This document shows, piece after piece, positions 31,091 through 35,500 of a stretch of 64,000 bases of DNA (position 1 is its first letter; every line of letters begins with the position of its first letter). Both the position numbers and the translations under genes were made by a program. The stretch is from Opisthocomus hoazin. Taxonomy: Eukaryota > Chordata > Aves > Opisthocomiformes > Opisthocomidae. Location: the NCBI RefSeq assembly GCF_030867145.1, contig NC_134434.1, positions 8,742,001-8,806,000 of the forward strand, written 5' to 3'. The notes beneath the pieces are model-generated. The model did no database searches and had not been told where the DNA came from. It worked only from the letters and a program-made list of their open reading frames with translations.

Positions 31091-32370
31091 TCAGCGAGGG
31101 TCTCCGAGGGCGGCCCGCAGCCACTGCAGGACGTCACGCAGGCCGGTGCTGTCGCGGGCGCTGGTCTCCAGCGTCGTGATGGGCTGCGTGGCGCAGGAGA
31201 CGATGTCCTGCATGCGGAACAGCGACTTCATCTCCGCCAGCGACATGTAGCAGGGCAGGTCACTGCGGCCGGGGGGGGGCTGCGTTAGCCCACCCGACGG
31301 CTCCCCCACCCGGGGGTCCCACAGAACCCCCGCCCTCGAGGTGCCCCCGCCCCCCTCACATCTTGTTGAAGACGACGAGCACGGGCACGGAGGCGAGCGG
31401 CGGGGCGCAGAGCACGGAGAGCAGCTGCACGCAGGACGAGGAGACCTGGGTGGGGTCCGCGGCGTCGACCACGAACTGCGGGAGCAGACGGGAGGGCGGC
31501 GGTGCGGCGTAACGAGGGACGGCAGGAAACAGCACTGCTGGGGCAGCACCCCGGGCCGCAGCCCACCGCTGCGGGCCGCCCCTCTCCCCGCCCTTGGGCC
31601 GGGGTCCCCGCCGGCGCGGTCACGGCGCGGCGCGGCTCACCATCAGCGCGCGGCCCTCGCCGTAGTAGCTGGGCCAGACAGGGCCCATGCAGCCGCCCAG
31701 CTCCCGCAGCACGGCCACCCGCCGCAGCGCCGTCAGGTCGGTGCCCACCTGCGGGACCGGGGCGCGGGTCGTCGGCTGCGCCTCCCCCCGGGGCCCCCAC
31801 CGCCCGCCCGACCGGGCCCTGCCTACCGTGGGCTGCGTGGCCGGGGGCTCGCCCAGCTCCACTGCCCCCCCCACGGTGCTCAGCTGTGCAGCCGGTCAAG
31901 GGCAGCGTGAGGGGGATGCAGACCCGCCGCCCGTCCCGGGACCCCTGCCCTGCCCGGGAGCCTCCCCTCCACCCCCCCGCCGGGACGCCTCCCGCCCGGG
32001 ACCCCCCGCCCTGCCGGGACCCGACAACCCCCCCCCCCCCCCCTCCCCGTGCCTGGGAGCCTCCCCTGAACCTCCCCACCGGGACCCCTCCCGCCCCCCC
32101 GGGACCCGACACCCCCGCCCCTCCCCGCCTGGGACCCCCAGCCCCGCCGGGACCCCCCCCCGCCTGGAGCCCCCTGCCCCGCCGGGACCACGACACCCCC
32201 CCCCTCCCCGCCCGGGAGCCTCCCCCTCACCCCCCCATCTGAGACCCCCTTCCCTCCCCCCCGCCCCGCGCCCGCCGGATATGACGTAGCCGCTTGGCCA
32301 GCAGGCTCTTGCCGCCACCCGTCGCGCCCAGCAGCAAGCACGTGGGCACGGGCCGCCCCGCGCCCGCCAT
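31091..32370 (-). CDS. ARL16: ADP-ribosylation factor-like protein 16
   Basis: Atypical small GTPase of the ARF/ARL family. Five exons on the minus strand: 32370-32283, 31885-31827, 31748-31641, 31475-31360, 31262-31091; 180 residues, slightly longer than most vertebrate forms. G1 is GATGGGKS at 15-22. The usual switch II WDxGGQ is replaced by ELGGCMGP, as in human ARL16. G4 is NKID followed by LPCYM, and the G5-like segment is ETSAR. Frame between exons 1 and 2 is kept only if intron 1 is removed from ATATCC to CAC, a U12-type AT-AC intron; the junction then reads KRLR-Q-LSTV, aligning with human KRLQ. It shares a 144-bp promoter with HGS. Confidence 0.9.
31886..32282 (-). other. ARL16: U12-type AT-AC intron (ARL16 intron 1)
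   Basis: On the minus strand the 397-nt intron starts ATATCCGG (U12 consensus ATATCCTT) and ends GGCTGCAC. A U12 branch-site match, CCCTTGAC, has its adenosine at 31896, ten nucleotides before the acceptor. There is no in-frame GT donor: the only GT nearby (CTAC followed by GTCATA) with the downstream AG puts exon 2 out of frame. Most of the intron is a C-rich (plus strand) degenerate repeat of CCGGGACCC units with a C run near 32028-32041. Confidence 0.72.
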
Positions 32371-32514
32371 CGCGCCCCGCCCCGCCCCGCCGGAAGAAGC
32401 CCCGCCCCCGCCGGAAGGAGCCCCGCCTCCGCCGGAAGGCGGAAGCGGGAGACGGAAGCGGAAGCGCCCGCGGAGCGGCGGTGGGGCAGGCCCGGCCGGA
32501 GGCGGGGGGACGCG
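32371..32514. promoter_or_regulatory. ARL16-HGS bidirectional promoter with tandem ETS boxes
   Basis: Only 144 bp separate the two start codons. Three CCGGAAG boxes, the ETS/GABP consensus, lie at 32390-32396, 32411-32417 and 32432-32438, each 21 bp after the previous. Further GGAAGCGG half-matches follow to 32465. GC boxes are interleaved and there is no TATA box. Tandem GABP sites are typical of divergent housekeeping promoters. Confidence 0.75.
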
Positions 32515-35500
32515 ATGGGGCGCGGCGGAGGCACCTTCGAGCGGCTCCTCGGTACCGGGCGAGGCGGGGGCCGGGCCGGGGTCCGCAGCGCTCGGCCGCG
32601 GGAGCCGGGGCGGGCGGGCGGTGCGGGGCCGGGGCGGGCGGTGCGGCGTCGCGGCGTCGCCGAGCGCCCTGGGCCGTCTGCGGGGGCCGAGCTGCCACGG
32701 TCCGGGAGGAACCGGGGCTGCCGTGCCCGGGTGTGGGGGCTGGGGCGTCGCCGGGTCCGGGCGCGCTTCCCGGTGGTGGCAGAGCGGGGCCGAGGGTGCT
32801 GCGCTGCTCTCAGCCGTGCTGCTGGGTTCGTCCCTCCAGATAAGGCTACGAGCCAGCTCCTGCTGGAGACGGACTGGGAGTCCATCCTGCAGATCTGCGA
32901 CATGATCCGGCAGGGAGATACGCAGTGAGTGCCCTGGGCGTGGGAGCCCGCGGTCGCACGTCTCTCGTCGTCCCCCTCCCCAAAGGCGTCGGAAGGGCGG
33001 GACAGCAGGCCCTGGGGACTGCAGGCTGCCCCTGGCCTGGACCCCTCAGAGAAACTCTAGCTGGAATGTGCTTGTTTCCTTCCGTTCCTGGGTTAACCAC
33101 ATGCTGCGTGTACCCTTGTGTTGGGGTGGGGGCTGGCAGGTTAGCGGCAGCTGGAATCTCCCCTCGGATTCTTGTTTGCCTGAAGACGTGCCCTCTCTTT
33201 CCTTACCCAGAGCAAAATATGCCGTCAACGCTATCAAGAAGAAAGTCAACGACAAGAATCCCCACGTGGCACTCTACGCACTGGAGGTAATGTCAGCCCA
33301 AGCTGCGAGCACCGCCGGGCCCAGCTCGCAGGCCAGGGAGCTTCCCGGCTTTTATAATCTTTCCTGCGGGGCTGCGCAGCGTGCCCTGCCCTGTCCCGGG
33401 AGCGGCGGAGCCGCAGGTTGGAGTTTTCCTGCGCCCGGCTCTAGCACAGGGGTTCTGTGACTGACCAGCAGGTCACGGTTTTCGTTGGCATTCCATCTCG
33501 GAGTTACTAGCAGACACAGCTGGAGTGTGAGAGGCTGTCCCGGGGGGGTCTGTCTTGTGCAGCAGCGGGGCAGAGGCTGCCGTGCAGCTGACACATAGCT
33601 CGCTCTCCAGCGTGGCGGCGTGGTCTTCTCTGGCTTGACTGACACTGCCCTGGTGTGACTCCTTGCCTAAGTCGTGTCCCTGTCCTGCTGTGATGGCTGC
33701 AGTAGCCTGTAACGTTTGCTGGGACTCCTCGCGGGCCACAGAGGAGGAGGAGAGCGGCAGGCTAATGCTGTGCTTTGCCCTTGCAGGTCATGGAGTCAGT
33801 GGTCAAAAACTGTGGCCAAACAGTCCATGACGAGGTGGCCAATAAACAGACCATGGAAGAACTGAAGGAAATACTCAAGGTAAATACATCCTATTTTACT
33901 GTCGCTTTTGAATGGGCTTGTGAGAGAAGCAGCAGGAGGAGAAAACGTGCACGTCCTCTCTTTCATTCCTTTTTTGTAAGGAATAGAAGTGCAGGAATAG
34001 AAGGGAACTGTTTGGAAATGTATTTCATAAAAGAGCAAACTGTATTGCGTGGTGTGAAGGGATGAGTGTGGGGAGCTAAGGAGCAGGGAGCGGGGAGAGA
34101 AGATACCGTGATATCAACAGTAACGTTTGGCTGTACTGTGAAGTGGGGTAGGAACGTGCTGCAGAGGCTTGGACCACTTTGTGGCTAATGCTGCTGGGTG
34201 CGATGCTTCGCTTGGCTTGAGGCAGCGAAGGAAAACAGAGGCGATGGTCTGGCAGTTGCACCAAGGATCTGAGCAGCGGTGCGGTGAATTCCCTTCCCGT
34301 AGTACAGCATGAGACCTGCAGGAAGGTAAAGCAGCAGGGTGAAAACAGGCAGAAGCTTCCTCTTTATCGTGGCCATTTCACTGGCCTGTGGCATTGTCTG
34401 AAGAGCGTTGCAGGACGCGAACCTGGCTGTTCTCACGGACAAGTTGTCGCAAGCTGTCGCTTGCCAGTTTGGTGCAACGTGATGCCTGCAGGAGCTCCAT
34501 GTGTCCTTGGACTGGAGCATTCCACAAGTGAAGTGGAAACGGGAACTTCTGTCTCCAGCTCCCATCCCCAGAATGGCAATGGCCAGACAAGAGCTTGCTA
34601 GAGTAGTGCTGTTCCTTCCTCACAGCCTCCGTCTTCCGCCAGAAATAGACGACCGGATGACCCAGATACTTGCTGAACGAGCTGTGCGAGTCCCGTCACC
34701 TCGCACGCCGTCGCAGGGCGTCTCACTCCTGTCACCTCCCTGTTAGGGCTGACTCAGTCTCCGTGCGGGATCTCCTGCTGAGATGGGAGCACTGCCGCAG
34801 TGCGATGGACGGGTGCAGCCGCTCCAAGCGCTGAGGAGATCAGATCGAGAGGATTTTGTGGTTCTCTCCCGTCCTTGTCTGTCTCGGTAGTTTCGTAACT
34901 GCCGCAGACCCCTTCTGCTCCCACACGTGGAGCTTTGCTGCTTGTGAATGCCCAGTGCTGGTAAACTGGTCTTAGTTCTGATGAGGTTCAGGGCTGCGAA
35001 TTCAGAGTTTGTGGAATGCAGGATTTTGCCAAATATTCTAGAAGTTTGGAGCTCCAGGAATTGTCAGCAAGTCACGCTGTGTGTGCTGAAATAGGAGCTT
35101 GACAACGCTGCTCTGCTTCCTGGGGCATTTCTGGAGCAGCCGGTCATGTGAATGCGCGATGACTCGGTCAGCTGATGACAGGGCTGCTCTCGGAGGCTGG
35201 CTGGGATAGGAACAAGCTTGCCAAGTTTCCTCTGGCTCCTTGAACCGTGATACAAGCACCCCTACCTCCAAAGGGCAGTCTTCGCAGCTGTCCTTACTGC
35301 GTCACGTCCCGAGGTAGCTTTGGGTGTTCGTGGGTGGGAGTCTCGGGGCTGGAGGTGCTGACAGCCGGGCACCAGCACCCCCGGCTGTGAGCCTCTGGCA
35401 CCCGGTCTGTGCTGAGCTGAGGCGGACCGTGCTGTCCGTGCTGTTCTGCCTGCTGGCTCGCTGTGGGTCCCGCATGTTTCTGAGTGCAGTCTGAGCAACT

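Follow-up and report, generated by a model that had tools for sequence, protein, structure and literature searches.

The first intron of the gene taken here to be ARL16, in a 64,000-nt stretch of the Opisthocomus hoazin genome, is very probably a U12-type AT-AC intron, most likely inherited from the vertebrate ancestor and orthologous to the human ARL16 minor intron. This class assignment, which had been proposed in an initial annotation of the same DNA, is supported at the sequence level by the donor, branch-like and acceptor motifs, by the reading frame that their use restores, by chance tests, by a C at donor position +5, by the poor quality of the competing GT-AG pairs, by matches to four minor-spliceosome snRNAs in the same genome and by the listing of human ARL16 as a minor-intron gene (PMC13216214, available text), all of which make an ordinary conserved U12 intron the most likely reading. 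Considering that human ARL16 is already listed in this way, a U12 intron in ARL16 is expected, and the find is as such an ordinary one; the part of interest is the donor, a candidate U12 donor which departs at positions within a site that is called nearly invariant in the available text of PMC2831892.

The window analyzed (the whole stretch, C21:8742001-8806000 of a genome of 1.48 Gb comprising 415 contigs) contains ARL16 on its minus strand, with five exons running from an ATG at 32370 to the stop at 31091 and specifying a product of 180 aa. The features concerned, in window coordinates, are the following:

32283..32370, minus strand: ARL16 coding exon 1 (88 nt), with the ATG at 32370 and the P-loop GATGGGKS
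31886..32282, minus strand: proposed ARL16 intron 1 (397 nt, phase 1, AT-AC, 82% GC)
32275..32282, minus strand: proposed intron 1 donor ATATCCGG, matching the U12 consensus ATATCCTT at +1 to +6, with GG at +7/+8 (32276-32275)
31895..31902, minus strand: branch-like CCCTTGAC, whose A, at 31896, has 10 intron bases after it
31886..31887, minus strand: terminal AC of intron 1, which ends in CAC
31827..31885, minus strand: ARL16 coding exon 2 (59 nt)
31641..31748, minus strand: ARL16 coding exon 3, with GT-AG introns on both sides
31360..31475, minus strand: ARL16 coding exon 4
31091..31262, minus strand: ARL16 coding exon 5, including the stop
32515..32550, plus strand: start of a divergent HGS-like gene, MGRGGGTFERLL, its ATG 145 nt from that of ARL16

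Introns 2, 3 and 4 are all GT-AG. In a profile search the 180-residue product is matched by Pfam Arf (E 7.9e-18), and Arf/Arl structures match it as well; the name ARL16 is that given in the initial annotation, and it agrees with the human ARL16 protein. The start of a human ARL16 primer, MCLLLG, is also in agreement with this naming (PMC13216214). When the genome was queried with the 180-aa protein (19 candidates scored, E <= 0.001), ten matches were obtained, five of which, on C21 and with 73-97% identity, are the window gene itself, while the other five (30-37% identity) are remote relatives; neither a retrocopy showing the spliced join nor a second copy was found by this search.

Intron 1 begins ATATCCGGCGGG and finishes CCCTTGACCGGCTGCAC. 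The donor, the acceptor CAC and the branch A ten bases from the acceptor that had been put forward for it were all located at the positions given above, and the claimed CGT-C/AG-CTG join was reproduced: the predicted exon 1/exon 2 junction reads ...CTACGTC + AGCTGAGC, which would yield ...KRLR|QLST... and restore the 180-residue frame over the five exons, whereas retention of the intron leads to a stop after 47 aa. The Q produced by this join had been placed where human ARL16 has KRLQ; the residue is indeed found at the join, but, relative to the human sequence, it lies one residue past the Q of KRLQ. The KRL-to-LGEP spacing that results from AT-AC removal is equal to that in human ARL16.

The donor agrees with the U12 consensus ATATCCTT at six of eight positions (+1 to +8), and CCCTTGAC, close to the 3' end, differs from TCCTTRAC by one mismatch. 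The 10 nt that follow its A fall, depending on the manner of counting, just under or inside the optimum of 11-13 nt between branch and 3' end quoted in the available text of PMC6717393. On the minus strand of 32370-31060, [AG]TATCC and CTT[AG]AC occur once each. The probability of such signals arising by chance was gauged by requiring [AG]TATCC close to one of the ends set by homology and a U12-like branch with A[CG] close to the other, and, these criteria having been fixed after the site was seen, the resulting counts are guides. When the first 600 nt of the gene were shuffled 4000 times with dinucleotides preserved, no shuffle had both donor and branch/acceptor, two had the donor alone and two the branch and acceptor alone; among 29,160 overlapping windows taken from a shuffled 25-kb background, both were present in 2. 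The donor octamer ATATCCGG is found 1526 times on the forward and 1538 times on the reverse strand genome-wide, which is uninformative on splicing.

Matches to minor-spliceosome snRNAs above the Rfam cut-off are present in the genome for U11 (3), U6atac (3), U12 (1) and U4atac (1), the best U11, U6atac and U12 copies being standard in appearance. Seven U12 donors identified in the same genome, namely those of PROX1, a PROX2-like gene, STX6 and four matrilin genes, were used as yardsticks; all seven read ATATCCTT, a number too small to provide a rate. Those of STX6 and the matrilin genes, the latter being known to carry an AT-AC intron, were taken as [AG]TATCC no further than about 11 nt from where a Pfam match ends, while PROX1 and the PROX2-like gene were placed by means of the reading frame and the known protein. 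This choice does not constrain +7/+8, but donors lacking [AG]TATCC are invisible to it. Both AT-AC ends were seen for PROX1 only (donor ATATCCTTTTCG, acceptor TTTTCCTTTACTAATTCAATCCTAC, AC at the far end), with STX6 and the matrilins contributing donors only. PROX1 and STX6 are both included in the U12 AT-AC table of PMC2831892. The PROX2-like gene (C7, L025-L028) exhibits a ATATCCTTTG donor, a TTTCCTTGAC branch-like motif and an AG-like acceptor (GGCAG|ATGCAG), and possibly contains an AT-AG U12 intron.

Other [AG]TATCC matches in the yardstick loci (L025/L026/L028, L027, L029, L030, L035, L036), several of them without TT, were dropped as lying away from match ends and not at exon ends, and a GTATCC in L040 was rejected as being located in coding sequence directly ahead of GTAA. 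Searches with Band_7 for PHB2 (5 matches) and with Na_H_Exchanger for SLC9A6/7 (27 matches) allowed no U12 intron to be recognised. Three [AG]TATCC occurrences near Na_H_Exchanger matches, none with TT, were discarded: that of L050 lies within the match, that of L067 is 51 nt past it, and that of L054 adjoins the match end but is part of GTGAGTATCC, an ordinary U2-looking donor.

PROX1 and ARL16 share AT-AC termini, an ATATCC donor and a branch-like motif near an AC acceptor; PROX1, however, combines the donor ATATCCTTTT with the branch TTCCTTTAC at 15 nt from the end, whereas in ARL16 the donor carries GG at +7/+8 and the distance is 10 nt. The deviation of GG for TT, to which the initial annotation had drawn attention, stands, and sets ARL16 apart from the yardsticks, 7/7 of which carry TT at +7/+8. 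Donor positions +5 to +9, which U11 is expected to contact (PMC10853781), read CCGGC in ARL16 and CCTTT in PROX1. The sequence ATATCCTT is termed the nearly invariant U12 donor in PMC2831892, and the rule RTATCCTT with one tolerated C-to-T change, as quoted in PMC2846911, is violated by the ARL16 donor.

Predicted duplex energies are naked-RNA estimates and weak evidence: pairing of the donor with U11 amounts to -3.1 for ARL16, -5.8 for PROX1 and -5.3 for PROX2, pairing with U6atac to -3.5, -8.0 and -6.6, and pairing of the branch with U12 to -5.0, -10.6 and -8.2, respectively. With U11, the U2 donors of ARL16 introns 2 and 3 pair off register at -6.8 and -7.7, and because they outscore the PROX donors, U11 energy by itself cannot separate the two classes; with U6atac the same two donors give -0.7 and -1.9, weaker than the -3.5 of intron 1. 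The donor of intron 1 is read as a weak U12 donor.

We tentatively consider that the minor intron of ARL16 may, in this lineage, have lost the donor segment from +7 to +9, normally paired with U11 and U6atac, and may yet still be spliced, although we would not call this the expected outcome. If true, splicing would rely on the +1 to +3 contacts, on CC at +5/+6 and on the branch site, and the weak donor would throttle a ciliary GTPase. The loss may have been caused by GC-biased drift, the segment being very GC-rich.

Alternatively, though this is unlikely, GG at +7/+8 may stem from an error in the assembly or from a rare allele, the common donor being ATATCCTT; such an explanation bears solely on the letters of the donor and leaves the U12 reading intact. 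Errors may be commoner in intron 1, whose sequence is 82% GC and contains tandem arrays as well as long G runs, and TT is present in every yardstick donor; this explanation would, however, require two neighbouring changes outside a homopolymer, and a single ARL16 copy was returned by the genome search.

Very improbable is the removal of intron 1 as a U2-type GT-AG intron. It had been claimed that the only GT-AG alternative shifts the frame, which proved incorrect, since within the enumerated ranges the downstream frame is preserved by 12 GT-AG pairs, two of which, 32285/31861 and 32245/31878, are stop-free. The first, TAC|GTCATA (32285) with GGGGGGGGCAG (31861), would cost the protein ten residues and add one L, and the second, GGG|GTCTCA (32245) with 31878, would add residues. 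Both have weaker sites than introns 2-4. For pairing with U1 over -3 to +8, the donor at 32285 has a predicted duplex energy of +0.5 and that at 32245 one of -3.8, against -7.9, -8.1 and -4.9 for the other three ARL16 donors, while the upstream pyrimidine content is 24% for acceptor 31861 and 53% for 31878, against 71%, 82% and 71% for the other acceptors. Furthermore, the motifs ATATCC and CCTTGAC would be left unexplained by either pair. Other stop-free in-frame pairs comprise 9 GC-AG, 3 AT-AG, 3 GT-AC, 4 GA-AG and 6 GT-GG, together with 2 AT-AC pairs of which the proposed intron is one; the AT-AG pair 32280/31883 gives a product of equal length in which H replaces Q. Of the stop-free GT-AG, GC-AG, GA-AG and GT-GG pairs, those scored for site strength were the two GT-AG rivals.

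Removal of genuine AT-AC termini by the major spliceosome, the route taken by sodium-channel AT-AC introns, which share these termini with ARL16, is scarcely credible, for even though the predicted U11 and U6atac pairing of the ARL16 donor is weaker than that of yardstick donors, the sodium-channel U2-type AT-AC introns all carry G at +5 according to the available text of PMC2831892 whereas ARL16 has C, pairing of the AT donor with U1 is predicted at -1.1 over -3 to +8 (-3.4 with a longer segment, off the usual register), and a U12-like branch site is present at roughly the right distance.

The U12-type reading is in keeping with what has been reported for other vertebrates. Human ARL16 is counted among minor-intron genes in a 2026 paper, in which ZCRB1-heterozygous human cells exhibit ARL16 intron retention along with other splicing changes (PMC13216214); the likeness to the present case is one of gene, as the available text of that paper gives neither donor letters nor the number of the minor intron and does not equate the retained intron with it. 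In chicken, AT-AC introns represent 18% of U12 introns versus 0.01% of U2 introns (PMC7367187), and PMC10639083 cites a figure of 94% for the human minor introns that are conserved in chicken. ARL16 is absent from the main text of PMC6717393 and of PMC10853781. A literature search combining ARL16 with minor/U12 intron terms gave, among the matches listed, PMC13216214 alone as relevant, and one combining ARL16, HGS and chicken gave nothing useful.

For a U12-type intron 1, the U11/U12 di-snRNP would recognise the 5' ATATCC together with the CCCTTGAC branch site, at the donor U11 would then give way to U6atac, and the 3' splice site would be the AC that lies ten bases past the branch A, generating the 180-residue ARL16 frame. 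In the absence of TT at +7/+8, U11 and U6atac would lack their usual pairing at +7 to +9, and because of this loss removal of the intron is expected to be correct but slow, with some retention producing a protein truncated after 47 residues. The sequence elements, the frame, the chance level and the presence of the four snRNA genes are direct results of the analysis, to which actual use of the AT-AC sites, orthology of the intron to that of human and slow splicing are added by inference.

With this intron, a gene already known to contain a minor intron gains a probable ortholog in a bird, and, if its splicing is confirmed, it would provide a natural test of the need of the minor spliceosome for pairing at +7 to +9. 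Gene finders that accept GT-AG introns only would put the end of ARL16 exon 1 in the wrong place.

Intron 1 is also repetitive (31925-32189), with many GC-rich tandem arrays of periods of 16 to 60 nt, and it contains long G runs; on its sense strand, a simple pattern picks out eight G-quadruplex-like stretches. Upstream of ARL16, the first exons of the plus-strand HGS-like gene read MGRGGGTFERLL..DKATSQLLLETDWESILQICDMIRQGDTQ..RAKYAVNAIKKKVNDKNPHVALYALE, and this gene is presumably HGS, which lies next to ARL16 in the human genome. The two genes are divergent, their start codons being separated by 144 bases (32371-32514), which probably constitute a shared promoter.
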